Below, one piece after another: positions 1 to 21,672 of a stretch of DNA of 25,129 nt. The DNA is from Planoprotostelium fungivorum (taxonomy: Eukaryota > Evosea > Variosea > Cavosteliida > Cavosteliaceae). The stretch is taken from assembly GCA_003024175.1 (NCBI GenBank), contig MDYQ01000316.1:1-25129 (forward strand). Direction: 5' to 3'. A program made the position numbers and the translations under genes. The notes below the pieces were generated by a model. It was not told the origin of the DNA. It ran no database searches and saw only the letters and a list, made by a program, of their open reading frames with translations. The number at the start of each line of letters is the position of its first letter. Positions within the stretch are counted from its first letter, which is position 1.

Positions 1-66
1 TTCATCCACTCTATCACTATCGACCCTTCTGTTCTCTCTTTCAGTCTCTTCTCTTCTCTGTCATGT
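1..66. repeat. Inverted terminal identity, left copy
   Basis: Bases 1-66 are the exact reverse complement of 25064-25129, and the first mismatch is at base 67. Both copies lie in the kinase-like domain of a receptor paralogue that is cut by the window edge. This is paralogue identity in opposite orientation, not a transposon end. A plausible reason for the sequence stopping here is an assembly break at a shared k-mer. Confidence 0.85.
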
Positions 67-3000
67 TATCACACCTGCACTGTCTTGTCCCAGATACATC
101 ACTATATTCGGATGATGCTGTCTCTGTCTCTGTCTCAGCTTCTATGTCCTCCTTCTTCTCTTTCTCTTCTCTCTCACCTGCAACATGACAGCCTCTCTGG
201 TCAGCTCTGCCTTGCCCCTTGCGTCCACTGCCTTCACCACACACACTGCAGTCACGCCGTCGCACACTGCCTTCCATGTCTCTATGCCTTCTTCTTCTCT
301 TTCCTTTCTTTCCATCTTCACTCTTCCTTTCATCTCTTCACCTCTGGTCATGCTGATCATCGTCTCGCCTTTCGTCTAGTTTATGTTCAGACGCGTCTCA
401 TCAACCTCTCTCACCCCTCTCCTGTTCCGCATGACAAGGAGGATAGCAATGATGGACAGAATGAGGATTGATCCGCCCGCAGCACAGCAGATGATGACGA
501 TCAGTGTCTTTGAAGTCATTCCTCCTCCGTCTGCAGGTATGGATCTGGTGTTGGCAGCTATAATTCCAATAGAAAAGTTTGTTAGATGACTGCACTGACA
601 CACAGCCAGACGTGCTTCGTCTATATAGAGATCACAGTCATCGCGTGACCATCCTTTCTGTGTCTCGTTCCACCACTGACACACTGCCGCTGTACCTCGG
701 TCACTTTCTCGTTCATCTGACACTGAACATGTTTCATACTCACTGTGATCAGTAGGGATATCATCGATGTATCCCATAGTGATGTTGATCTTCTCTGTTA
801 CTCCTGCTATCTCTACCTCTCTTCCACTTCCATCGTACACTTGCACTCCCACTACTCCGCCTCTTCTGTTCATTCTCCATCACTTCAAATGAAATCATCG
901 TTCTCATCGACTCACATTGATTCATTGTAGACGGACAGCAGAGAAGAAGAGAGTCGGAAAGATAGTGCCACAGATACTGTCCATCTCAGCTTCTCTCTCT
1001 TCCACCATCTCACCTTCTTCGTACGCCGATACAGAAGATAACGGAAGCCTCACTGAGCATGTACGGCCGTTGATTGCATTCTCTATCGCATCTAAACTGC
1101 TCTCGTTCTTGCTGTACGTCTGCAGGCTGAGTGACACAGAGTCTGATGTATAGCTAAACGTCTTTGTGGAGCGTAAGAGTGCCGTGACTACAGCAGATAT
1201 CACATCGATATTCTGCCAACACTTTCAGACTGAATCATCCATCTGATCTCACTTCATCTGTGATCTGGCCTGCGGAAGAGTACCTTCGCAGAATATCCTG
1301 CACTCGCTTTCAGTCTTCTCCTTCTCCCTTTCTGCATCACTGGAGGAGATCAATGTCCCTGCACTGTACAGCAACTGTAATGGACATGTTGTGTTCACTG
1401 ATATCAAGCAATTTGAGTTGGAAGGCTGTGCAGTGAAGCATGGGAATGGATTGTTGGCAACAGAGCATGTGGATGTGAAGCCGCTGAGAGCATTCTCCTC
1501 GATCAGAGTAAACTGATTGTTGGACAGATCGATTGATGTCAGAGAAGGAAAGGTGGAAGCGTTCATGAAAGATGGTACAGAACCGTTGAGATAGTTAGAT
1601 CTGTTGTCGTTCACCTTTCGATCACATCGTAATATCACCTGAGGTTCAGTGTTCTGAGAGCTGGTAGTTGCGACAGACTAGAAGGTATTCCACCGACCAA
1701 ATTGTTGTTCTGCAGCTCTTCATTCAACACAGACATCACATCATCCAGTCTCACACTCAGATCCACAGTCGTCAGCTGACTCAGACTGCCAAAAGATGCA
1801 GGAAGCATTCTGTTTGCTGTCGAGCCTTGGAAGGCATTGCTCATAGACAGCGTCGTCAGCTTGTACAGAGATGTCAGTCCACTCAGATCGCCAGACAGAC
1901 GGACGTTGTTCATGCTCAGAGTGACAAGATTGGGTAACTGAGATGACATTCCATCCAGTGTTCCGTTGACATCTGATGACAGCGTTACAGAGAACAGATT
2001 GTATTTCACTTCACTCACTTGAGTTATCGAGGCTCAGGTATGTGATGGACTGTGGCAGATTGACCATCACACTGCTGATGTTTTGTGGAGTGTAACTGTT
2101 GTACAGCTCGATCTTGGTCAACTTGGTCATTGTGACCAGTGATGGAATCGATATCAGAAGATTATATCCCAAGTTGAGGCTGATAACGCTTGGAAAGGCA
2201 GAAGCAAAGTTGTCTTGTAGAGCAGTGATGTTATTACCATCGGCAGATAAGGTCGTCAAACTCGTCAGATTTCCATAAAGATAGGAAGGTAGATTTCCCA
2301 ACGTCCCCATACCTTCATCTCCTTCAGTAAATGATGTACAACATCATCTCACCTCCAAGAAGAAGAGATGTCAACTTGGAAGGAGAGGAGAAGATGACGT
2401 TGGAAGGATAACTGAACTTGTTGTAGCTCAGTTGTGCGGATGTGATGGAAGAGTTGAACACAAAGGGTGGTATCTCTCCACTGAAGCTGTTCAAGTTCTG
2501 TTGTCTCGTCAGATGAAAAGATGAAGAGAACGAGTATCACCGTGCCGATGCTCGTGAGGTTTGTACAGCCCTGTAGGACGTTGATTGACCCGTTCAACCT
2601 GTGCTCTGTCATCTTCTCTTCGCTTCTGCACAGAGATAGTTCACCCAGTATTATTGCTGAGGTCCAAGGTACGCAGATTAGTCAGATTTCCCATCGAAGA
2701 AGGAAGGGGTCCGCTGAACATGCTGTTAGACAACTTGAGATAGGTCAGACTCTGCAGCTGACCGATGGTGGAGGGTATATGTCCATTCAGCTGAGTCGAA
2801 TAGATGCTCAGACTCGTCAGATTCGTCAAACTACCTGCGACACTTTTAGCTGACAGAGAAGGAGTGAGGTTACCGATGGAAGGCGACAGTGTGCCGTTCA
2901 GACTCTTTCCAGTCAGTGAAAGACCTGTGACGATGCCATTCGTGCAAGTGACACTGAGGAAGTCGGTCGTGTTGCAGGGCTGTCGTTTGACTCTCAGACA

Positions 3001-3169
3001 GAACATTCTCGATACAAGTACTCACGTTCTGTCCTCTGTAATAGCTAGGAGACCCACCGGCAGCCGACCAGATGTCTTTCAGACTGATCACTACAGAGGG
3101 ACTCTGTGCTGCGGTCGGAACGAGCACGCCAAAGAGGAGGAAGAAGGATACGATGCAGACTCCGATCAT
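1..3169 (-). CDS. Receptor gene 1: LRR - GPS - membrane helix - pseudokinase, 3' end off the window, probably disrupted
   Basis: The ATG at 3169 opens a signal peptide (hydrophobic VSFFLLFGVLVPTAA); exon 1 is 3026-3169 and its 46-nt intron has the same length as in receptor gene 3. The LRR N-cap (PCNTTDFLSVTC) and plant-type LRRs (LxGxIP pattern) follow down to about 1390, then a GAIN-like region (about 880-1215), the GPS motif (about 573-684, with CQWW...CDLY...CQCSHLT), a membrane helix (about 429-507) and the kinase-like N-lobe (VMK lysine, REAVML). The gene leaves the window at the EWM segment. Exon borders match receptor gene 3 throughout, with one exception. Near 1333 a 9-nt deletion removes the donor that follows DAQ in gene 3; reading on reaches a TGA at 1249, before the GPS. 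The likely product is a truncated secreted LRR protein, or the locus is a young pseudogene. The family assignment is firm; functionality is doubtful. Confidence 0.75.
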
Positions 3170-5110: not shown

Positions 5111-7668
5111 TTAAAGATGTGCATACGAGTCGTAACATGGATCATCTTTGTATCTCCTCGCCCCGTCCCCCTCACTCTTCACGTCGGCAGAGACTGCTTG
5201 TCTTCGTACCCTCAGCTTCTTTGCGATGTCGAAGAAGTTCGGTCGGTCTTGTGTTTGCGTGCAGTCGAGGACGAGTGCTTTCATTCCTGTGTCCCAGCTT
5301 TTCGTCAGGACGGCTGAAGACTCTCTCGTTGCAAGACGCTTTCCTGTCTAAGTGCGTTCAGCGCGTGATTCTGTGTGTGATAGACATCACCTGCTCAGAT
5401 ATGTCTTCTTGTTCGACCATCGACCACAAAAGCAGTCCATAGCTGTACACGTCTGATGCCTTCTTGTACACCCCTTCTCTGCCTACCTCTGGCGCCTCGC
5501 TCTCTGTCAGCTCTCTTCTCGTCTCTGCTGTCACTCACTGTGTGCGGTCCCATCTGTTGCTGCTCTGCTCTGTCGCCTTCTGTGACAGCGTGACGCATGT
5601 TGGCTATCTTGGCTGTCACTTCTCCATCGATCACATTCACATATACCTGCAGGTGATCTTCAGCATCATCATCCGTAGTCATCATGAAGGTGACTCACGC
5701 TCTTGGCCGTGAGATGAGTGTGAACGAGACCTTGTTCATGGATGTACGTCATTCCCTTTGCCACATCTTCTCCTCTGCATACCGTTCAGCTCTTCTCTCT
5801 TCAATTTCGCTCACATCTTCAGTAGTCTGCTCAGATCCAGCTCCTCCTTTTTTACATATTCCTGTAGTCTTCCTGCGGTCATCCACTCTGTCACGATGTA
5901 CCCTTCTGTCCTCTCTTTTAGCTTCTTTTAAATTCTTCTCGTCATGTTATCACACCTGCATTGTCTTTACCCAGATACATCACTATATTCGGATGATGCT
6001 GTCTCTGTTCCTCTCTCAGCTCTCGACGCTCTCCTTTCTTTCTCTTCTCTCACCTGCAACATGACAGCCTCTCTCGTCAGCTCTGTCTTGCCTCTTGCGT
6101 CCACTGCCTTCATCACACACACTGCAGTCACGCCGTCACACACTGCCTTCCATGTCTGTATGCCTTCTTCTTCTCTTTCCTTTCTTTCCATCTTCACTCT
6201 TCCTTTCATGTCCTCGCCGCTAGTCATGCTGATCATCGTTTCGCCTTTCGTCTAGTTTTTGTTCAGACACGTCTCACAAGAGCAGATCAATCTCTCTCAC
6301 CGCTCTTCTGCTTCGCCTGATAAGGAGGATAGCAATGATGGACAGAATGAGGATTGATCCTCCCACAGCGCAGCAGATGATGATGATCAGTGTCTTTGTC
6401 GAAACATCTCCGTCTGCAGATATAGCTCTGGTGTTGGCAGCCATCACATTGATCGAGAAGTTTGTGAGATGACTGCACTGACACACAGCCAGACGTGTTT
6501 CGTCTATATAGAGATCACAGCCGTCACGTGACCATACTCTCGGTGTCTCATTCCACCACTGACACACTGCCGCTGTACTTCTTTCACTTTCTCGTTCATC
6601 ACACATCGAACATGTCGTATACTCACTGTGATCAGAAGGGATGTCATCGATGTATCCCATAGTGATGTTGATCTTCTCTGTCACTCCTCTTATCTCCACC
6701 TCTCTTCCATTTCCATCGCACACTTGCACTCCCACTACTCCGCCTCTTCTGTTCATTCTCCATCACTTCGATTGAAACCATGGTTTTCATCGACTCACAT
6801 TGACTCGTTGTATATGGATGATAGTGGAGAAGAGAGCGCGAGAGATAGTGCCACAGATACTGCTCATCTCAGCTCTCCTCTCTTCCACTACCTCACCTTG
6901 TTCAAATGCCGATACAGAAGATAACGGAAGTACAACCGAGCATGCACGGCCGTCGATCTCATTCTCTATCGCATTTGAGCTGCTCCCATTCTTGCTGTAC
7001 GTCTGCAGGCTGAGTGACACAGAGTCTGATGTGTAGCTGAACGTCTTTGTGGAGCGTAAGAGTGCCGTGACTACAGCAGATATCACATCGATGTTCTGTT
7101 GACCATCGTCAGTCTCCATCATACATCTGACATTCTCACTTGATCTGAGAAAATACATTGACCAAGATGAGTTGTCATCAATTAAAATCTGGGTCCCACA
7201 TTCCCTATTGTTATAAACCAGTGAGTCATCTGATGGATAGAAGGCTGAGAGACAAACAGGAACCGTCCTTAATGCAAGGATCACAAGATCATCTGCAAAG
7301 GATGTGGAATGATTTACACTCCAGGGAGAGGTTCAGAGGAGGTCGTCCATATGTGATGCATTTTCTCTTCAGATCTTGTGATGAACGACTGCCATCTCTG
7401 ATGGTACAGGTGATATGGTTTCATCACAAAGATGTGCCAATATTGCCTGCCCGGTAACAGTCACACAAGATAACTGCAACCAAGATTACTACTATTTGGG
7501 CGTATGAGCCCAAAATTAACCAGGATTTGTAGTTATGATTACACAATAACCATTCATTTGCGTATTTTGGTAGTGGATGAGGTGGTAAAATCCTTGCTGT
7601 GTCAGAGCCGCGGTTGGTGAGATCACAGCGTAGATTATGAAGATGGTCAAGAGGTAGACTTCTCTCAT
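5111..7668 (-). CDS. Receptor gene 2: GAIN-like/GPS - membrane helix - pseudokinase, without leucine-rich repeats
   Basis: The start is the ATG at 7668 (signal peptide MREVYLLTIFIIYAVISPTA, close to MRAVYLL... of receptor gene 3). A short novel N-terminus follows. A 252-nt intron (7293-7544), much longer than the family's usual 37-61 nt, can join exon 1 in frame to a segment ending in the shared VISAVVTALLRSTKTFSY GAIN-like region. The GPS motif (about 6455-6565, CQWW...DGCDLY...CQCSHLT) and membrane helix (about 6310-6390) are intact. The kinase-like domain keeps the VMK lysine and HHPNIVMYLG, but the catalytic loop reads VHTHLTAKS (HTH at 5714-5722) and the activation segment starts with ANM (5596-5601). 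APE-like, DVYSYG and CTQTQDRP elements complete the C-lobe. The gene ends with AHL and TAA at 5111, and AATAAA on the sense strand follows at about 5098-5103. The first intron is the least certain part. Confidence 0.72.
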
Positions 7669-8610: not shown

Positions 8611-11600
8611 TCAATCGTCGCTGTTCTCAGTCGAGTGAGTCTGAAACAACTTCTTCACAATTTCAAAAGTGCCATCTAAAGATGCGAAGCCTCCCAAGAC
8701 AAACTACCCACGTCAATGATTTCATCTACAACGAGACATCACCCTGGTGTTCTTCTTCGTTTCTACGTGGAAGATGTCACGTGACCAGACGAATAGACCG
8801 AATGGCTTGAGAATGTTCTTGATGTCGTTGTACAGCAGTTTGATGCGTAAATCTTGTGTGGGTGTCTGTGTGTAGATGAGATGAAGGAGAATTCACTTTT
8901 ACATCCATCTCTACATTCGCTCTTCTATGAATTCATAGAATGAAGATGAAAAGATGGAACAATAAGATGAATGGAAGAATGTGGGGTGTAAATAAATCGA
9001 AATAAAACCCTCACCTGTCTCAACGCGTGGAAATAAATTCCGTGCTCCGTCACATACAGATTTCCCTTGATGTTATCCATCATGCAGTTCGAATAGACTG
9101 ACACAGTCATCACTCTCCACACGATCTAAAACTCACACTCGATGAGGAACTCGCTGGGCTTCATGAAAGAGAAGATCTTGTGCATGGCTGTGTTCTGATC
9201 TTGGTACTTGTGAACGAAGGCAGCGTAGGGCTTGTGTCTGTCGGAATCGTCTTCTTCTAAGAAGGTAACGGGGATGGGACTGGTGTTGGGAGGGCAGAAA
9301 CTGAAACCTGCGAATCGATCGGTGTCATCTTCTCGGAGAGATGATGATGATGATCTCGATCGATCGAGATGATGCAGATTGATGTCACGATCATCATGTC
9401 GATCGGCACCACGACACGATCATGATCCATGTCTTACCGTTGTTATTCGCCTTCCTCTCCAACTCGTTATACGCGGCGCCATCTTGGCTGCTTGTAGTTT
9501 GAGTCTGCTGGGGTGGTAATGCCACCACTTTCTTTGGTGTCTCCGCTGATTTTGTCATCTTCAGTGGTGTGGGCTGCGGAACGTTCTTGGAACTTTCTGA
9601 CTGTCCACCGCGAGGAGTAGCGGGTGCCGACGAACGGTTGACCGAAATGACTCGCTGATTGAACTGATGACGTAAGTTTACGTCATCGTGCATCTACAAC
9701 GATGTAAACGAACCTGGTCTTGTATCCATGGATACCACTGATGGAATTCGATGTTCTCCTTCATTGCCGTCTCGTACATTTTCTGTGAATTTTCTTCAGC
9801 GTCACGTGATCAGGGTATGTGATGACGTATGATGACGTCACGCACCTTCAGATCGACCTCTTGCAGTTGGATAGCTTTGTCTGGATAAGCTATAAATAGA
9901 TTGATCTTCACAGCTGCCGCCGCCGTGAAGAAGAATTCGGACATGGTAGCCCCGGGGTCGACCTGAAATTTCCGTGAGTTTTCCCGGCTGTACAATTGCA
10001 CATTGTACGCACCATGTGATGGTCTGACTCCAACGGATTCTTCTTCACTTGACCGATCACCTGTGAAATTTCAAAAAAAAACGACGGAAATTTCGAAGAG
10101 TTTCACCCTCAAATTTCCATTGTCCTTGGCTGCGGGGGACGCGGGAACGAGGCTCGTTGTAGATTGACTGTTCGTGATGGGTGGACTGTCCGTCAGAGGA
10201 TTCGTCGTGACGTTTTGGCTCGTTGTAGTGGAAAGTACGTCTGGTTGTAGATCAATGAGAGGCGCAGCATCCTGTGCTGGAGCGGAAACAACATCTTGCT
10301 TTCGCGTCCCAATCGATTGGGCCAGCTCGGCAAACAACGAGTCCGTCTAGGTGAGTTAGAACGAGTGAATCATCGAGCGTCTACAACGATGTAGATGTAC
10401 ATATTCGAGAGATTCACCGCGTCCATGCTAGAGATGTGTTCGGGTAGGTTTCTCTGATCTCCCATTTGCATCTCCCTCTGTTCTCTCAAGTGATCCGACA
10501 GCTGTTCGAAATTGAGATCCTCGTTTTGAGCGGGAAAATTTTGGCGGGAGGAATTCGACGGGAAACTCACCTCTTGGTTCTCTACCTGCAGCTGTGAGTT
10601 CTGCTTGACCAGAGTTGCCACTGTCGTTTGTAGATTGTGAATGTTGTCTCCGTATCCCTTCATCTCTTCCTTGTACTATTCTACCCCTCAGCATTTTCCT
10701 CGAATTTTCCCACTCACCAGCTCGAGTTGGTCTCTGGCCTCGTTGGTCTCGTATTCTTTTTCTTTGAATTTTCTCTTCAGTTCGTTGTAGTTCTTCGTCA
10801 GGCTCTGCAATTTCTGGTCCAGCGCAGCGCACTGTTCTACGATTTTTCTCAGAATCTTCCCAAAAAGTTTGTTCTACAACGAGTCACACCTGACAGATTG
10901 TTCTTTTCGGCCTCCAAGAGTGAAGTCTGCCTCTTGTATTCGTTGTCACGAGTCAACATCAACTCTAATGACTTCTGATGTTTGTGCGACTCTTCTTCAA
11001 AGTGCGACAGTGATTTCTTCAGCTCTGCCACCTGTTCTCTCATCGGTCATCGTCCATCAATCGACATCATCATGAGATGTCCATCCTCTCCCGATGTCTT
11101 TCGACTCACTTCGCTCTGTGCTTGCTTGTCCTTCTTCTTCATCTGTTGTTGTAGATCCTCGTGATTCAGTTGCAGTTGATTTAGGGTGTGCATGAGCTGC
11201 TCGTTCCTCTATGAAAGAGTCAGGACACGTCTATCACATCTTGACAGGTCATCAGAGGTGCTCACCTCTTGCTGAAGTCGGTACTCTTGTTGGAGGTAGT
11301 TGGCATCAAACGTTGGCTCATCGCTCTTCTCTTGTTTCCTCTTCGATTTGGCTTCTGCGAGATTGTGTTCCAACTCTTGGATGACCTGTATAACCATGGT
11401 CGGTGATCGATCATTCATCGAGAAACGTTTCGTCACCATCGTGTTTTGGTTGTCCTTCTCGATCAACGTGATGATCTGTCCTTCCATCTCTTGATTCTTC
11501 TCCAATAATGATTTACCCAACTCTGTGCTCGTATCACAGTTGATTCGAGAACGAAGAGTTCACCAGCGACCATGGCGACCTCTTGTTCTTTGTTGGCCAA

Positions 11601-11738
11601 TTCTTCCTCCAGTTGCTTGTATGCTTGTTCCCAAACTTGTGCATCGGATAGATCGGTTGGAATGTCTAAACTCTTCCTGAAGACATCCATGGACCCCCTG
11701 TTGCCTGGAGAGAGAGCTCCCCGTGATTTGTTACTCAT
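8611..11738 (-). CDS. Long coiled-coil protein with C-terminal GRAM-like domain
   Basis: About 17 short exons join in frame to roughly 700 aa. The start is the ATG at 11738 (MSNKSRGALSPG), which follows a likely 5'-leader splice acceptor (TTGCAG). Exon 1 is 11564-11738 and exon 2 is 11437-11522. Residues about 55-320 are heptad-rich coiled coil and include AELGKSLLEKNQEMEG, which resembles the N-terminal motif of CDR2/TRAK/BICD-type adaptors. A Thr/Ser/Pro-rich linker follows (about 10095-10340), then a conserved block with AYPDKAIQLQEVDLK and FHQWYPWIQDQ (9720-9955), and a second Ser/Pro-rich linker (9430-9665). The C-terminus contains FLIE, NIKGNLYVTEHGIYFHA, IKNILKP, SRDIFHVET and FVLGGFASLDGTFEIVKKLF, a GRAM/PH-like fold pattern, and ends with TGA at 8611. 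An adaptor role linking membranes to transport or cytoskeleton is an inference. A decayed inverted copy lies at 3594-4140. Confidence 0.78.
9353..9370. repeat. 18-nt perfect palindrome in a GATC-rich intron
   Basis: ATCTCGATCGATCGAGAT is its own reverse complement. It lies in an intron of the coiled-coil/GRAM gene (about 9315-9428) that consists largely of GATC and ATCATC words. The decayed copy at about 4030-4060 keeps part of the same composition. Confidence 0.8.
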
Positions 11739-11744
11739 TTCAGA

Positions 11745-12010
11745 GGACTGCAATAGAAAGGTCAGCTGTCTCGGAGATCAGTCTTGATTGTCTATAGAGG
11801 ATAGACAGAGTGTTCGAGGAAGATGTGACCATCTCGTTTGAAGTGGATGTTTTCGAAAGAAATGAAGAACTTCTGTGACGATGCATTCACCTCAGAAAGA
11901 GGCGTTTCGTACTCGACTGTGAAGTGGAAGGGGTGATGTGTCTGATGGCGGTAGAGGTCAACCGTCAGACTACAACAGGACGTTTCTGCCTTTTCATTTT
12001 CTCTTTTTTT
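11745..12010. repeat. Upstream/leader region of the GRAM gene, inverted partner of 3300-3620
   Basis: The reverse complement of this segment carries a leader with TATAGACAATCAAGACTGAT, a candidate 5'-UTR intron ending TTGCAG, and the sequence just upstream of the ATG at 11738. The match to 3300-3620 is nearly continuous with scattered substitutions. It is the probable promoter and leader of the minus-strand coiled-coil/GRAM gene. Confidence 0.65.
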
Positions 12011-13441: not shown

Positions 13442-16400
13442 ATGCGAGCAGTCTACCTCTTATGCTTCTTCCTCCTCTCCGCTACAATCTTGCCGACCGC
13501 AGCTCAGGATGTGATAGTTAGCAGTCTGAGAGATGTCTGGCTGACCGCCAGTGGGTCTTCTGATTATTACAGAGGACAGAACGTGAGTACTTGTGACCAG
13601 AATGTTCTGTCTGAGAGTCGAACGACAGCCCTGCAACTCAACTGACTTCCTCGGTGTCACATGCACGAATAGCACCGTCACGGGTCTTTCACTGACTGGA
13701 CGGAATCTGAACGGAATGCTGTCGCCTTCCATCGGTATTAATAACATCACTTCCTTGTTCTCTCTCTGTCAGCTGAAAATATTGCAGGGAATTTGACGAA
13801 TTTGACCAGTCTGAGCATCACTTTGACTCAGCTGAACGGACAGATACCCTCTACCATCGGTCAGCTGCAGAATCTGATCTCTCTCCAGTTGGCCAACAGC
13901 AACTTTAGCGGACCCCTTCCTTCTTCGATGGGAAATCTGACTAATCTACAGAAACTAGACCTCAGCTATAACTATCGGTGAATCATCGATGTGCAGAAGC
14001 GAAGAGAAGATGACAGAGTACAGGCTGAACGGGTCGATCGACGTTCTACAGAGCTGTACAAACCTCACGAGCATCGGCACGGTGATACTCGTTCTCATCA
14101 TCTTCTCATCTGACGAGTACAACAGAACATCAACAACTTCACAGGAGAGATACCACCCTTTGTGTTCAACTCTTCCATCACATTCGCGCAACTGGGCTAC
14201 AATCAATTCACTTATCCTCCCAACGTCATCTTCCCTTCTCCTTCCAAATTGACATCTCTTTATCTTGGAGGTGAGTTGATATTGTACATCATTCACTGAA
14301 AGAGATGAAGGTATGGCGTCGTTAGGAAATCTACCTTCCTATCTTTATGGAAATTTGACGAGTGTGACGACCTTATCTGTCGACATTAATGACATCACTG
14401 CTCTGCAAGACAGCTTTGCCTCTGCCTTTCCAAACGTTACCAACCTCAACTTGGCATATAATCCTCTGACATCAATCCCGTCACTGATCACAATGAACAA
14501 CTTGACCACGATCAATCTGTACAACAGCTACAATCTACGAAACATCACCAGTGTGTTGGTCAATCTGCCACAGTCCATCACGTACCTCAACCTCGATAAC
14601 ACAAGTGAGTGAAGTGAAACACAAACTGTTCTCTGTAACGCTGTCATCAGATATCAACGGAATACTAGATGGAATGTCATCTCTGTTACCCAATTTGAAC
14701 ACTCTGATCATGAACAACGTCCGTCTGTCTGGCGATCTGAGTGGACTGACATCTCTGTACAAGCTGACAACGCTGTCCATGCAAAGTGCCTTCCAAGGAT
14801 CGATAGCAAACAGAACACTTCCTGCATCTTTTGGCAGTCTGAGTCAACTGATGACTGTGGATCTGAGCGTGAGACTGAGTGATGTGATGTCGGTGTTGAC
14901 TGGATCGGAACAGAGCAACAGACTGGTCGGCGGAGTACCTCCTAGTCTGTCGCAACTACAAGCTCTCGTAACACTGAACCTCAGGTAATCTATCGAGGTG
15001 ATCAAATGATGAATGACAACAGATCGAACTATCTCAACGGATCTGTACCATCCTTCATGAACGCCAGCACCTTTCCTTCTCTGACATCGATCGATTTGTC
15101 TAACAATCAATTTGCTCTGATTGAGGAGAACGCTCTTAGCGGCTTCACATTCAAATGTTCTGTTGTCAACAATCCATTCTCATGCTTCACTGCACAGCCT
15201 CTCAACTCGATTTGCTTGATATCAGTCAATACGACATGTCCATTACAGTTGCTGTACAGTGCAGAGATATCGATCTCCTCCAATGATGCGCAAGTGAGAG
15301 AAAGGGAGAAGGAGAAGACTGAAAGTGAGTGCAGGATATTCTGAGAAGGTACTCCTCTGCAGGCCAGACCACAGATCAAGTGAGATCAAATGGATGATTC
15401 AGACTGAAAGTGTCGACAGAATATCGATGTGATATCCGCAGTAGTCACGGCTCTTTTACGCTCGACAAAGACGTTCAGCTACACATCAGACTCTGTGTCA
15501 CTCAGCCTGCAGACATACAGCAAGAACGAGAGCAGCTCAGATGCGATAGAGAATGTAATCAACGGCCGTACATGCTCAGTGAGGCTTCCGTTATCTTCTG
15601 TATTGGCGTACGATCAAGGTGAGATGGTGGAAGAGGGAAAAGCTGAGATGAACAGTATCTGTGGCACTATCTTTCCAACTCTCTTCTTCTCTGCTGTCCG
15701 TCTACAATGAATCAATGTGAGTCGATGAAAATAATAATTTCATTCGAAGTGATGGAGGATGGACAGAGGAGGCAAAATGGTAGGAGTGCAAGTGTACGAT
15801 GGCAATGGAAGAGAGGTAGAGATACAAGGAGTGACAGAGAAGATCAACATCACTATGGGCTACATCGATGACATTCCATCTGATCACAGTGAGTATACGA
15901 CATGTTCGATGTCAGATGAACGAGAAAGTGAAAGAAGTACAGCGGCAGTGTGTCAGTGGTGGAACGAGACACAAAGAGTATGGTCACGCGATGGCTGTGA
16001 TCTCTATATAGACGAAGCACGTCTGGCAGTGTGTCAGTGCAGTCATTTAACGAACTTTTCTATTGGGATTATAGCTGCCAACACCAGAAATATACCTGCA
16101 GACGGAGGAGGAATGTCTACAAAGACACTGATCATCATCATCTGCTGTGCTGCGGGTGGAGCAATCCTCATTCTGTCCATCATTGCTATCCTCCTTGTCA
16201 TGCGGAATAGAAGAGGGGTGAGAGAGGTTGATGAGACGTGTCTGAGCAAAAACAGACGAAAGGCGAGACGATGATCAGCATGACCAGCGGCGAAGAGATG
16301 AAAGGAAGAGTGAAGATGGAAAGAAAGGAAAGAGAAGAAGAAGGCATAGAGACATGGAAGGCAGAGTGTGACGGCGTGACTGCAGTGTGTGTGATGAAGG

Positions 16401-17394
16401 CAGTCAATGCAAGGGGCAAGTCAGAGCTGACGAGAGAGGCTGTCATGCTGCAGGTGAGAGAGAAGAGAAAGAAAGAAAGGAGAGCGTTGAGAGCTGAGAA
16501 AGAGACAGAGACAGCATCATCCAATGATAGTGATGTATCTGGGACAAGACAGTGCAGGTGTGACCAACGTGACAGACAGAAGAATCTGAAGGAGGGCAGA
16601 AGGCTACATCGTAACAGAGTGGATGAACGCAGGAAGACTGCAGGAATATGTGAGAGGGGAGGAGTTGGATCTGTACAGACTACTCAAGATGTGAGTAGCA
16701 TCGAGCGATGGAAGGGCTGAACTGTATGCAGAGGAGAAGATGTGGCAAAGGGAATGACATACATACATGAACAAGGTCTCGTACACACTCATCTCACGGC
16801 CAAGAGCGTGAGTCACCTTCATCATGACCACGGATGTTGATGCTGAAGAACACCTGCAGGTGTTCTTGAGTGTGATCGATGGAGAAGTGACAGCCAAGAT
16901 AGCCAACATGCGTCACGCTGTCACAGAAGGCGACAGAGCAGAGCAGCGACAGATGGGACCGCACACAGTGAGTGACAGCAGAGACGAGAAGAGAGCTGAC
17001 AGAGAGCGAGGCGCCAGAGGTAGGGAGAGAAGGAGTGTACAAGAAAGCATCAGACGTGTACAGCTATGGACTGCTTTTGTGGTGGATGGTCGAACAAGAA
17101 GACATATCTGAGCAGGTAATGTCTTTACACACAGAAATATGTGCTGAGCGTGCTTAGACAGGACAACGTCTTGCAACGAGAGAGTCCTCAGCCATGACGA
17201 CGAAAAGCTGGGACACGGGGATGAAAGCTCTTGTCCTCGGCTGCACGCAAACACAAGATAGACCCAAATTCTTTGACATCGCAAAGAAGATGAGGGCACG
17301 GAGACAAACAGTCTCTGCCAACATAAAGAGTGAAGAGGACAGGATCAGGAACCACAACGACAGTCAAGCTGGAGACTCGTATGCACATCTTTAG
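13442..17394 (+). CDS. Receptor gene 3: complete LRR - GAIN-like/GPS - membrane helix - pseudokinase
   Basis: Twenty exons join in one frame (13442-13582, 13629-13734, 13788-13977, 14024-14081, 14126-14270, 14311-14604, 14651-14868, 14914-14984, 15023-15293, 15335-15379, 15420-15618, 15656-15716, 15767-16217, 16256-16453, 16515-16557, 16600-16690, 16732-16807, 16860-16967, 17005-17115, 17158-17394), giving 1037 aa. The order is: signal peptide (1-21), LRR N-cap with two cysteines, about 12-14 plant-type LRRs, cysteine-containing C-cap, GAIN-like stalk, GPS motif (CQWW...DGCDLY...CQCSHLTNF; cleavage expected between HL and T near 16050), membrane helix (about 16125-16209) and kinase-like domain. 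The lysine (VCVMK) and the alpha-C glutamate (REAVML) remain, but the glycine loop is degenerate, HRD is HTH (16784-16792) and DFG is ANM (16905-16913). APE, DVYSYG and CTQTQDRP elements are kept. It is probably a surface receptor that cleaves itself and signals without phosphotransfer. Confidence 0.87.
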
Positions 17395-17518: not shown

Positions 17519-17785
17519 ATGGACTACAATTTGTCGATGCAACCAAATTTGCGATTACAAATCAATCACACCCCGCATCACATCATGCCACACGAACCAA
17601 AGGGTGCATTCGAAGAGCTACACTCTCTCGTTGATCAATTCGGCTGTGCCAAATACTACTACTCCGTTGAGGAATGTTTGAATGCCAACAACAGAGACTT
17701 TAGAAAATGTCAGACTGAGATGCGTGAATTTCAAAAGTGTTATATGGAAAACAAGAAGAAAGCAGCCAACGAACAAAAGAAGTGA
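17519..17785 (+). CDS. COA4: COA4-like twin CX9C mitochondrial assembly factor
   Basis: This single-exon 88-aa protein has two CX9C motifs in a helical hairpin: GC-AKYYYSVEE-C and KC-QTEMREFQK-C, each with exactly nine residues between cysteines. The pattern YxVEEC, RDFRKCQ, FxxC and a basic tail matches COA4 (CHCHD8/Cmc3 group), and the length is close to that of human COA4. Members of this family are oxidised in the mitochondrial intermembrane space by the Mia40 relay and support cytochrome c oxidase assembly. The ATG at 17519 follows a TTTAG that could be a leader splice acceptor; a second in-frame Met six codons later is an alternative start. The gene starts only 125 nt after receptor gene 3 ends. 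Another small CX9C family such as COX19 or CMC1 is less likely. Confidence 0.85.
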   Translation: MDYNLSMQPNLRLQINHTPHHIMPHEPKGAFEELHSLVDQFGCAKYYYSVEECLNANNRDFRKCQTEMREFQKCYMENKKKAANEQKK

Positions 17786-18015: not shown

Positions 18016-20393
18016 TCATCGTTTCTCCGTCTTGATGTTCTTGTCGATGAATCCTCTACAACGGGATCAGTCTCTTCCATCGTCGTCTTCAGATCATGAC
18101 GCACCTGCATTTGGTGGATAAAGACATGGCACCGTATATGTCTGCAATCTCTAACAAAGTCTCCGCATTTTCTGTACAAATTCCATGACTAACGACCTGT
18201 CCAAATGAGATGCTGATCGATCACATCGCAATGTCAATCACGTGACGATTTCGATGGTGTTGACATCGACACGATCTCCATCGTGAAGACATGGGTGATG
18301 ACATCCAACACAAGATGACATGCACACTCACCCTCTCCGCCATAGCTTTCAACTCTGGCAGCAGATACCGATCACCGATGATCATCGTCTCCACGGCAAC
18401 TTCCGCATCGATGACTACATAGTCCGTGTACCTTCCTCCTTAGTCGACATTCACAAACGTCGACACCCACAGATACTCCATGACGATGAGAAAGACCTGA
18501 TGATCAACGTCCGACATCTCTATGGTATCTTGATAGCTCTCCCTCATTCGATTTGATATGAGAGCGTTGAAGTGTTCGCTGCGTGTGGCCAATATGTTCT
18601 TGTGTGCGAATACCTTACGGCCTTCCACGAGAAAGACAATGTCGGAGAATTTCTCCGAATTGACTAATCTCCGAAGATCTCCCGCCAAACTTCGCGGAGG
18701 GGGGACCGCCGCCGTGACAGAAAATTCTGGGGAAAATCAGGGGGGGACGGGGGGGTAACACACCGAAATTGAACCGATGGAGGTCGTTCAGGTTGGTCTG
18801 ACGCTTCGAATATCCGCCGAATATGTACATGTTCTTGCAGTGAACGATGGCACAGTGGAAGTGTCTTGCTGAAGGGGTGCGAGCGTCAGATTCTGATATG
18901 GTCACCCATTTCTTGTCCGTTCCATCTACAACAGTTCAATCGGATGAGACAATCTGGAAGGGGAGAATCTAGGGAGATTTCGGGTTACGTACCGAGTTCG
19001 AGGGTGCAGACGTCACCGTATTGTTCCTTGTTGAAACCACCGTGGACGTACAATCGATCGTTGTGGGCCACGGTCACGTGACCTCTACGCTTCTGGGGGA
19101 GGCTACTGATACGTATCCATACGTAAGTGTCCAGATTGAAACGAAAGCAGTCCCCTTGGTTGTCCGTGGCGGCTAAACCTGTTTCTCCGTCAGTTCGAAT
19201 TGTACACAGACATTTCGCTGCTCATTCGTTGTAGATTGATAATAACATGGATATGTGGATACCGTTGTAGATCGAACCGTGCGTATATACGTGGGCATGG
19301 TACAAGCGTATGATGTCTCTATCGATGCATCGAGGATGTCATCGTGAACAGAGATGGATGATATTACAAATCGAACATGGATGGATAGAAGTGGATTCAC
19401 CTCCTACGATGTATAGATTGTGATTGAACAAAGCTGCTCCGTGAAATTGTCTCGCAGCTGGTGGTGTGCCGAAGGCGGGAAGAGATCTCCATATACCAGA
19501 TCCTGCAAGCTTCAGTTTGAAATTTGAATCTCCCGCCGAAATCACCGATGTGGAATTCGTGTGCATCTCTCAGGAAGTGAGTACCGTAACCACCGAAGAC
19601 GACGATGGAGGCCTCCCCATTCTCTCTACAACGAGTCAATTTCATTTCCACCCTCTACTAGATGTATGTAGGGCGGCACGGTAAAGATCGTGAATTTTGC
19701 GGTAGTTAAGGTGTTCTCACTTGAGATGGAGGTTTGCAGTGTGACCCCAACGTGGTGTGGGTGGATTATCACTTCTTATCTCTCGCCAGGCTCCAGTGAC
19801 TGTGCATCGGTAAGCATCATGTGAATTTAATGGACTCACTGATGTCAAAGTGATGTAAATCGTTTCGAACTTGACCGTTGGTGCCTTCATTCCATCAGAT
19901 CCTGATGGTGACGCTCGAGATGAGATCACACCGATGCCACCGAAGACGTAAAGTCCATTGTTGTGACAGACCATTGTGTGGGAGTGACGAGCTGGTGGCC
20001 GATCCGCTTTGTTTCCTTGGTAGACAAAGTCCCATCTTCCTTCGTCTATAGAGATCAACAGGTTTTCGATTTTCAATAAACGTATCACGTGGGTGGTTTG
20101 TCATTCAGAAATAGAATTGAAGAGAAGAAATGTCTCTCGCTCGTGCGAACATGGAAGATGTATACGATGATCACCTAGACTGTATTTGTGAAGGTCATTC
20201 CGGTGAACTCCTCTTCGGTCGACGTCATCACTGACAGTGATTCTCAGAGGAAGGCGGCCAGCTATGAGGATTCGACTCACCTATATCCTCCAAAGACATA
20301 AATGTAATTGGCATGGACTGCCATCGCATGACAGTGCCTGGGAACAGGTACTGTACCTGTTGTGGCCAACACCTCCCATGAATTAGCATCCAT
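18016..20393 (-). CDS. Kelch-repeat BTB protein, LZTR1-like
   Basis: Eleven exons join perfectly in frame to 487 aa (20393-20281, 20230-20175, 20045-19721, 19625-19546, 19502-19401, 19178-18993, 18925-18764, 18678-18471, 18431-18332, 18196-18105, 18055-18016). Residues 1-320 hold about six kelch repeats of the form P-x-R-x-x-H...YxFGG (for example PVPRHCHAM...YIYVFGG, PPARHSHTM...LYVFGG, PSARHFHCA...MYIFGG). A BTB domain follows (LRRLVNSEKFSDIVFLVEG, KVFAHKNILATRSEHF), then a BACK-like tail (ENAETLLEIADIYGAM). Kelch before BTB is the LZTR1 arrangement rather than that of KLHL proteins, so a CUL3 substrate-adaptor role is likely; LZTR1 itself has two BTB domains and only one is seen here. The ATG at 20393 is the first in frame after a stop. 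One intron end contains a C/G-homopolymer-rich stretch (18700-18760). Confidence 0.86.
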
Positions 20394-20576
20394 CCCGATG
20401 TGAATCTCGATGGGTGTTTGTCCGTTTTGGAAGGTAACCGTGACACGAAGGATGGGTTAGATGCCCACAGATCGTCTTTAGAGGTCAGTGAATGCCTATA
20501 TCGTGATTGCTGATGCCGATGTGAAATACAGAAATAACATCTTCCCGCCTTTTATTTATTCAACATCGGCCACAAC
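20394..20576. promoter_or_regulatory. Short divergent promoter region between kelch-BTB gene and HAUS1
   Basis: Only 183 nt separate the start codons of two genes transcribed away from each other. It holds an AT-rich TTTATTTATTCAA stretch at about 20551-20563. It must contain the promoters of both genes unless the kelch gene has an unseen upstream exon. Confidence 0.55.
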
Positions 20577-21672
20577 ATGAACGATCAGGTTTTAGAGGAC
20601 AAGTATAAAGTCGTCCTAGGATGGCTCAAATACAAATACGGCAACGACATACCTCCATGGGAGGTCACCGCAGATAACATCCAGATCATGTATGATCTGG
20701 CGACCCTAAATCAAATACGAACCGCACAAGTGCAAGCGAAGACACAATTCATGTTAGAGATCCTTCAGGAATACAAGGTGGAAACCGATATGATGAGACA
20801 AACTATCGATCATTTGGGCGTCAAGAAGATGTTACCCTCCATCACCTCTTCAGATTCTTCCACATCATCTCTGCATCAAGTCGTCAGAAGTCTCACCGCC
20901 TCCGCCGTCGAGCTCGATCTCAAAGACACAGAGACAAGCAGGTGATGCACATCCAACGACACGTTTGTCACGGCCTTCTCATCTGATCCTCTCCAGTTTC
21001 TTCTTTGCCATCAATCGACTTCATTCCGATCAGAATGACCTCGTAGACAGACAGAGAAGTGTAGATCGATCCCATCGTGTCATGAAACAGAAGCTCTCTC
21101 AAGCTCAGACGGCTCTCAATAGTTTACAAAAGTGAGACGTTCTGAGTCATCCCAGTCATCTATATTGATCATCGCAGGATCTTGAAAGAGACGAAACTCA
21201 ATGCGGAGAAGACGAGAGATCTGATGAAGAAACAAAAAGAAGAATCACCTTACTACGATCAGAAGCAGGCTGAATACACGGAAGAATTATCGGAGTTGCA
21301 AGAGAAGGTGATGATGTTTCACAAGTTCATCAGAATGAAAGGCACAATATATTGATATCGTACAGCTGACTGCCTCTGGCTTGAAGCGAGAGATCATGCA
21401 TCCCGCTTTGGTCCAACTTCGGTCCGAGTTGGACGAAGTCCAACAAGAAGATTCCGAGATTCGGTCCAAGTTGGACGTCTACAACGATCTACCTCCCGTG
21501 AGAACTTGTCATCGTCATCGGCATCTCATCACATCTGGAATGTCATCACGATCAAAGGAGACTGATGGATGTGCAGGATGTTGCCTTGGCTGAGATCAAG
21601 ATCACAGAGGCCAAGAGAAGGTACAACGAGATGGAGGACAAGTTGAGGACAGCCATCTCCGAGTTCATCTGA
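20577..21672 (+). CDS. HAUS1: HAUS augmin-like complex subunit 1
   Basis: Five exons (20577-20941, 20997-21131, 21178-21307, 21366-21497, 21577-21672) give 285 aa, close to the size of human HAUS1. The N-terminus VVLGWLKYKYGNDIPPWEV matches the family's calponin-like start (WL..G...IP.YEV). The conserved centre LTASAVELDLKDTETS-SFFFAINRL corresponds to the SAVALETKDTSLASF region of animal HAUS1, and the C-terminus keeps the coiled coil with LDVYNDLPPDVALAEIKITEAKRR. HAUS1 belongs to the eight-subunit augmin complex that recruits gamma-tubulin to pre-existing microtubules for branching nucleation in the spindle. All splice phases agree and no disruption was seen. The ATG lies at the start of the conserved domain. 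Confidence 0.9.

Follow-up and report, generated by a model that had tools for sequence, protein, structure and literature searches.

The 25,129-base window analysed here, which is the whole of contig MDYQ01000316.1 (C277) in the Planoprotostelium fungivorum assembly (GCA_003024175.1; 36.86 Mb and 471 contigs searched), carries a complete gene, called copy 3, together with three related copies. Its predicted product joins a plant-type leucine-rich repeat (LRR) ectodomain, a GAIN-like region ending in a GPS motif, one transmembrane helix and a kinase-like domain in a single chain, an architecture that, judged from the spliced sequence, is almost certainly real. The evidence inclines us to the view that copy 3 comes from a large family of receptors that cleave themselves, cross the membrane once, end in a pseudokinase and would signal by scaffolding a partner kinase.

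Architecture of the receptor gene

Manual splicing of the three-frame translation gave a copy 3 model that runs from the ATG at 13,442 to the stop codon at 17,392-17,394, has 20 GT-AG introns of 37-74 bp and no internal stops, and was tested against the neighbouring copies with a purpose-written spliced aligner (Table 1). A first-pass annotation of this DNA had claimed that LRRs, a GPS, a single helix and a kinase-like domain lie within one reading frame, and had proposed profile searches of the spliced protein as a check. The splicing, the hydrophobicity scan and the Pfam searches bore this claim out, with LRR_8 (68.5 bits), LRR_14 (64.1 bits), the GPS and PK_Tyr_Ser-Thr (PF07714; aa 766-972, 87.5 bits, cut-off 23.1) all above their cut-offs. 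Together with the signal peptide, recognised by eye, one chain thus contains the layout of a plant LRR receptor kinase. The GPS is followed by one helix and then by the kinase-like domain, not by a seven-helix domain, and no Pfam match to the PKD channel or to the PLAT membrane part was obtained in copy 3 at E-values up to 1. The segment between the HLT threonine and the helix, put at about 25 residues by the annotation, measured 26. The 54-nt intron before the GPS was considered as coding sequence, being conserved, a multiple of three and open in all four window copies, and was rejected as such: the introns at that place in the loci L022, L028 and L041 carry stops and differ in length.

GPS motif, GAIN-like region and predicted self-cleavage

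The GPS of copy 3 (aa 632-670) scored 37.7 bits against a Pfam cut-off of 22.5, and the motif was matched in all ten diverse family members searched; chance can be excluded, because 150 matches in the genome exceed the curated cut-off. The HLT tripeptide was present in every GPS locus read (n = 43; 42 directly and L039 across an intron), in agreement with the GPS and HLT first proposed, and one GPS cysteine was absent, by a simple pattern, from 11 of these loci.

Searches with the copy 3 GAIN/GPS region against PDB sequences returned 16 distinct chains at E-values up to 10 (best 0.0002), 15 of them named as adhesion G protein-coupled receptors (GPCRs) and the other being latrophilin-1, likewise an adhesion GPCR. 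A profile of ten family members matched ADGRG2 (4.7e-13, profile positions 28-193) and ADGRG6 (1.2e-10, positions 27-193), and other PDB chains over shorter stretches, each ending in the GPS. The region upstream of the motif gave a much weaker signal. Once the GPS was removed, the family profile had no significant PDB match (best E-value 1.4, an epimerase), and hhalign of the GPS-less parts gave a weak match (score 26.9, E-value 0.0011, probability 20%, 111 columns in register), against 11.3 for the reversed target and a best of 23.7 among 40 column-shuffled targets, none of which reached 26.9. The Pfam GAIN profile matched none of the ten family members, and nothing in the whole genome, where its control was likewise silent. 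For a contiguous frame that spans the GPS exon and the helix and reads through the 54-nt intron, the predicted structure had a predicted local distance difference test score of 41.7 and was not used. A GAIN fold upstream of the motif is a tentative assignment: homology of this region to GAIN is likely on sequence comparison, resting mainly on the GPS, and for the part beyond the GPS it is weakly supported.

Self-cleavage of the receptor at the predicted site is, all told, probable. Some adhesion GPCRs remain uncleaved, and the GPS might here be a structural relic, with the GAIN kept as a spacer in otherwise ordinary LRR receptor-like proteins that do not cleave. The weak detectability of the GAIN beyond the GPS would agree with such a relic, as would the enhancement of ADGRE2 cleavage by the full seven-helix part (PMC12488864; statements on this and the other papers cited by PMC number refer to excerpts of them), owing to which one helix may cleave less well. 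The HLT, however, is intact in every locus read while a cysteine has gone from some of them, and GAIN plus GPS had ratios of nonsynonymous to synonymous substitution (dN/dS) of 0.20-0.46 in 21 pairs, these and all later ratios being our own Nei-Gojobori estimates on seven sequences of one subfamily. A single helix also sufficed in a chimera, in which the ADGRE2 GAIN ectodomain on one PDGFR helix cleaved itself efficiently (PMC12488864). We consider a relic unlikely.

The genome-wide family

GPS matches above the cut-off numbered at least 150, on 85 contigs, a lower bound because 150 of 176 candidates were scored, and they were clustered, with ten on contig C351, seven on C1 and six each on C196 and C58. 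For closer study 39 loci were sampled, 37 by taking each fourth match in rank order (38 in all, less one that lies inside the window) and two by choice (C34 and C58:331384); ab initio gene models were made for 37 loci and homology-based models of the part behind the GPS for all 39. A kinase-like catalytic loop was found behind the GPS in 139 of the 146 loci examined. Among the sampled loci, 37 of 39 had the loop at +797 to +976 nt and the DFG equivalent at +875 to +1046 nt from the GPS start, and 37 of 39 had one hydrophobic helix after the HLT (in L036 two segments adjoin, and the model of L038 has none). These counts support the suggestion of a receptor family and speak against an accidental arrangement.

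Ectodomains varied. Simple motif counts gave three or more plant-type LRR motifs in 20 of 37 models and none in ten, counts that depend on ab initio models of which some are perhaps short at the 5' end. L004 had a TIG match above the cut-off with LRR matches below it, and long Ser/Thr runs occurred in several models; a B-lectin ectodomain, the first impression of L003, was unsupported by Pfam at an E-value of 0.01. In the modelled sequences the GAIN, helix and kinase-like domain are the constant part and the ectodomain is variable (LRR; LRR with TIG and a Ser/Thr stalk; others), and the LRR is not among the constant parts. Two loci, L016 and L023, are possible decoy or truncated receptor forms.

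As for other receptor and channel families, PKD_channel had seven genome matches, none adjoining any of the 150 GPS loci. The 7tm_2 profile had no match in the genome, but its control was silent too, and this is not proof of absence. A single genome match to Dicty_CAR (33.4 bits) was observed.

Loss of catalytic residues in the kinase-like domain

The complete kinase-like domain of the first-pass annotation is not catalytically complete. In copy 3 the PF07714 match begins at profile position 31, beyond the Gly loop, HTH stands in place of HRD, and NMR in place of DFG. A census was made of 139 loci, comprising the 37 sampled loci, window copies 2 and 3, and 100 of 105 further pieces of 411 bp, taken at the expected distance (on which these pieces therefore carry no information) from the 107 remaining loci outside the window, two of which lay too near a contig end. 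The HRD Asp was kept in 12 loci, the DFG Asp in 30, both in six (L072 and L073, with identical motifs, L124, L126, L148 and L160) and neither in 103, and the HRD Arg was kept in none of the 139. At the HRD Asp position were found R (n = 29), Q (n = 19), S (n = 16), A (n = 14), N (n = 12), H (n = 11) and others. Near-identical copies are included in these numbers (124 distinct loop blocks; 103 of the 105 pieces distinct).

Motifs were chosen by eye for the 37 sampled loci and assigned in the remainder by small profile models built on those 37, the DFG model being less reliable than the loop model. Loop assignments were below 7 bits in L119, L125, L150 and L151, and DFG assignments below 1 bit in L063, L064, L108, L123, L126, L133 and L151. 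The census omits 11 of the 150 loci: window copies 1 and 4, two contig-end loci, L016 and L023 (no motif), and L091, L094, L107, L128 and L137 (loop under threshold). A pattern independent of any family model, [HY]xD[LIVM]xxxN in any frame, occurred in ten of 144 pieces and revealed no canonical loop in those left unread by the census.

Control kinases elsewhere in the genome kept both Asp in 14 of 15 cases (ten by pattern, four by eye), L044 keeping neither; these controls were high-scoring PF07714 matches without stops and with long open frames, and hence lean toward canonical kinases. Checked by eye on the same 15, the loop model was correctly placed in 12 and wrongly in L051, and was displaced by two residues in L044 and L055; six of the controls scored under the threshold used. 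L044 is a kinase-like gene without a GPS that scores 19.1 with the family loop model, perhaps a pseudokinase relative lacking the receptor part. PF07714 gave 1388 first-look candidates genome-wide, of which 134 were scored; for a 37-Mb genome, this may point to a very large kinome.

The residues are lost, the domain is under purifying selection (see below) and the fold is predicted by sequence profile; on this evidence it is very probably a pseudokinase. Since this applies to copy 3 and to nearly the whole family, signalling by the receptor's own phosphotransfer is unlikely. It could be held that the domains are active by an unusual mechanism despite the altered HRD and DFG, and a beta3-Lys-like motif in 24 of 39 sampled loci (loose regular expression, by eye) and the six loci with both Asp point that way. 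In 103 of 139 loci, however, neither Asp remains, and the HRD Asp has been replaced by a wide variety of residues, which looks like loss rather than one new mechanism; such activity is improbable. L124, L126, L148 and L160 keep the loop Asn as well as both Asp, the HRD Arg being replaced, and are candidate active partners, the DFG call in L126 being low-scoring.

Selection and probable exchange among paralogues

In the tested subfamily the dead kinase-like domain is under purifying selection. Its dN/dS was 0.13-0.26 in the ten pairs with the full domain and 0.18-0.65 in the 11 pairs restricted to the N-lobe (88 codons), with the maximum in copies 2 and 4. Ratios for the LRR part were 0.24-0.54 (nine unsaturated pairs, >300 codons) and were greatest in the closest pairs (0.54 for copies 3 and 1, 0.48 for copy 1 and L041, 0.47 for copy 3 and L041).

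A decaying pseudogene family left by tandem duplication would account for the many copies, for copy 2 without an LRR part, for L016 and L023 without kinase motifs and for the 11 of 150 loci left unread, but copies 1, 2 and 4, L022, L028 and L041 contain no frameshift or stop, the kinase-like domain is constrained as described, and intron positions are kept, all 16 introns of copies 1 and 3 being at identical places over aa 1-810, with no stops; this explanation is hardly credible. Equally remote is the idea that the model wrongly joins exons of two genes, one for an LRR protein and the other for a GPS-kinase protein: copy 2 does show the GPS-kinase part without an LRR, and the gene model was built from genomic sequence, but copies 1, 3 and 4, L022, L028 and L041 align collinearly from LRR to kinase through 16-20 introns without a stop.

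Synonymous distance between copy 3 and L041 differed by region (LRR 0.32, GAIN plus GPS 0.79, kinase 0.18), intron 13 of copies 3 and 4 is identical except for a 6-nt insertion, intron 19 of copy 3 is identical to that of copies 2, L022 and L041, and windowed identity between paralogues followed the same mosaic pattern. Taken together, these observations point to gene conversion or exchange among paralogues.

C-terminal tyrosine and candidate partners

Termini were compared in copy 3 and in 14 loci for which the ab initio and the homology model give the same stop codon. Tyrosine occurred within the last 12 residues in 13 of these 15, often preceded by an acidic residue and followed by a small one (DSYAHL, DAYGTIHV, DPYRMQ, DHYGMQE). 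The cytoplasmic Tyr frequency predicts 0.33 per terminus, giving a binomial tail of 2.6e-5, which is overstated since the termini are paralogues; among control kinases with a closed long frame one of four had such a tyrosine, too few to weigh. The genome contains 79 SH2 matches and 43 exon-level tyrosine phosphatase (PTP) matches, and the kinase loops HRDIAARN and HRDLALRN, which by the usual rules look tyrosine-kinase-like, are present in L053 and L054. A tyrosine/SH2 output of the receptors is conceivable on this basis, at somewhat less than an even chance.

Proposed mechanism

The GAIN would fold in the endoplasmic reticulum and cut between the Leu and the Thr of HLT, after which the two fragments would travel as one. 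Binding to, or pulling on, the ectodomain would then loosen or remove the outer fragment and thereby alter the packing of the helices and the dead kinase domains. The dead domain would serve a real kinase as scaffold or allosteric partner, an output that we rate as fairly probable; the C-terminal Tyr, once phosphorylated in trans, would be recognised by SH2 proteins, and the six loci with both aspartates may include the active partners. A precedent for non-catalytic, allosteric output is EFR, a receptor kinase domain that signals by activating its partner BAK1 (PMC11259431).

The first-pass interpretation as a whole was partly sustained: the domain order and the family stood, but the kinase-like domain is very probably a pseudokinase and the LRR is not the constant part. 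Its least certain step was the tethered-agonist role of the exposed segment, because one helix offers no seven-helix pocket. GAIN autoproteolysis has been studied almost wholly in seven-helix receptors, for which the prevailing model has the tethered agonist entering the core of the helix bundle.

Several points weigh against the scaffolding receptor pseudokinase that we propose. Its ligand and partner kinase are hypothetical, and all gene models are predictions from the sequence. The six loci with both Asp could be active, no loop was assigned in five of the 105 further pieces, L016 and L023 seem to end shortly after the helix with no kinase motif, and the tail Tyr is absent in two of 15 termini. 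To these are added the poor GAIN signal outside the GPS, the help that seven helices give to cleavage, the lean of the control kinases, the single subfamily behind the dN/dS values and the few, related termini.

Receptors that keep their cytoplasmic part while the ectodomain diverges, and that have multiplied through duplication and gene conversion, are consistent with a repertoire for recognising prey, microbes or kin. As a more tentative extension, about 150 self-cleaving receptors might serve innate recognition without phosphotransfer: ligand or tension would strip off the non-covalently bound ectodomain, and what remains, a stub made up of the dead kinase and a tail carrying phosphotyrosine, would recruit the few active members or free tyrosine kinases together with SH2 adaptors, ectodomains being swapped by gene conversion on a common GAIN-helix-pseudokinase chassis.

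Comparison with known systems

Adhesion GPCRs (ADGRG2, ADGRG6, ADGRL3 and others), which gave the best PDB matches, share a GPS with HLT/S that ends the GAIN before the first helix, but have seven helices where this family has one helix and a cytoplasmic pseudokinase. ErbB3/HER3-type receptor pseudokinases combine a dead kinase domain with tail tyrosines used in trans, as proposed here, and differ in having another ectodomain, no GAIN, and one gene against about 150. Plants are not known to have GAIN or GPS. Plant LRR receptor kinases, including the non-catalytic EFR (PMC11259431), resemble the family in plant-type LRRs, one helix and PK_Tyr_Ser-Thr; unlike them, nearly the whole family here is without catalytic residues.

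A GAIN on one helix is also found in a natural one-helix form of Cirl in Drosophila (PMC13197933) and in the ADGRE2-PDGFR chimera (PMC12488864), but these are an isoform and a laboratory construct, and no kinase-like domain is named for them in the excerpts. The polycystin-1 family likewise carries GAIN/GPS outside the classical adhesion GPCRs, but with eleven helices (PMC9672506), and the PKD_channel matches here are not beside GPS loci. GPCR-TKL fusions of choanoflagellates, oomycetes and amoebozoans are similar as expanded families of receptors fused to a tyrosine kinase-like (TKL) kinase, but have seven helices and not the order of GAIN, one helix and pseudokinase (PMC12716839). Amoebozoan family-2 GPCRs are described as having no GAIN (PMC10445921), LRR receptor-like kinases occur in many eukaryotes, the GPS not being mentioned in that excerpt (PMC13091385), and the excerpt of an Acrasis kona paper (PMC11589745) does not contain the relevant terms in the intended sense. 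Among the literature matches listed (titles and starts of abstracts, with subscription papers and preprints outside the scope), the combination of GAIN/GPS, a single helix and a kinase-like domain was undescribed.

A natural one-helix family of about 150 members would separate cleavage and fragment release from the seven-helix mechanism, and so asks what GAIN release alone does. As a collection of receptor pseudokinases it would be uncommonly large, and the variety of its catalytic losses would provide natural data on the purpose of dead kinase domains. Beyond animals and plants, it contributes a candidate repertoire of receptors with a self-cleaving module in the stalk of a receptor-kinase-like protein.

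Other copies and neighbouring genes in the window

The annotation had counted four copies in 25 kb. Four GPS matches were indeed found, but copy 3 alone is complete, copies 1 and 4 being cut by the contig ends and copy 2 having no LRR part that could be found: nothing above background appeared within 5 kb upstream, and a candidate LRR remnant was rejected with a score of 139, an unrelated stretch scoring 122.5.

Table 1. Features of the receptor genes in the window
Feature	Position	Strand	Basis
Copy 3, complete receptor gene	13442..17394	+	21 exons, 1006 aa; hand-spliced, introns and frame matched by copy 1
Putative signal peptide, aa 1-21	13442..13504	+	Translation read by eye
Plant-type LRR ectodomain with cysteine cap, in exons	13629..15190	+	Pfam LRR_8, LRR_14, LRR_4 and LRR_1 above cut-offs
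GAIN-like region ending in GPS, 6 exon pieces, ~200 residues	15191..16064	+	Profile of 10 paralogues; hhalign
GPS motif	15948..16064	+	PF01825, 42.8 bits (six-frame), 37.7 bits (protein)
HLT, predicted self-cleavage between 16049 and 16050	16044..16052	+	HLT in 43/43 GPS loci read
Single transmembrane helix	16128..16202	+	Hydrophobicity scan, one segment after HLT
Kinase-like domain (probable pseudokinase), 7 exon pieces	16388..17289	+	PF07714, 87.5 bits, aa 766-972
HRD equivalent HTH, catalytic Asp lost	16784..16792	+	Sequence and family census
DFG equivalent NMR, metal-binding Asp lost	16905..16913	+	Sequence and family census
C-terminal tyrosine tail GDSYAHL	17371..17391	+	Tyr within last 12 residues in 13/15 agreeing termini
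Copy 1, same architecture, cut by contig end inside kinase N-lobe	3..3169	-	Spliced alignment aa 1-810, 83% identity, 0 frameshifts
Copy 2, GAIN-GPS-helix-pseudokinase without LRR	5114..7318	-	Aligns convincingly only from GAIN onward; 5' start provisional
Copy 4, same architecture, cut by other contig end	21926..25127	+	Spliced alignment aa 2-810, 64% identity, 0 frameshifts

Between copies 2 and 3, at 10370-11777 on the minus strand, frames appear coiled-coil-like by eye, 11212-11559 having no Pfam match at an E-value of 0.01. A small CHCH/NDUFB7-like protein (17537-17782, plus strand; matches under the curated cut-offs) lies directly 3' of the copy 3 gene, followed by one or more Kelch-repeat genes (18618-20100, minus strand), in which Kelch families match two separate exon frames. 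A HAUS1-like exon (augmin subunit; 20538-20942, plus strand), with a Pfam HAUS1 score of 78.8 bits, stands beside the receptor cluster.

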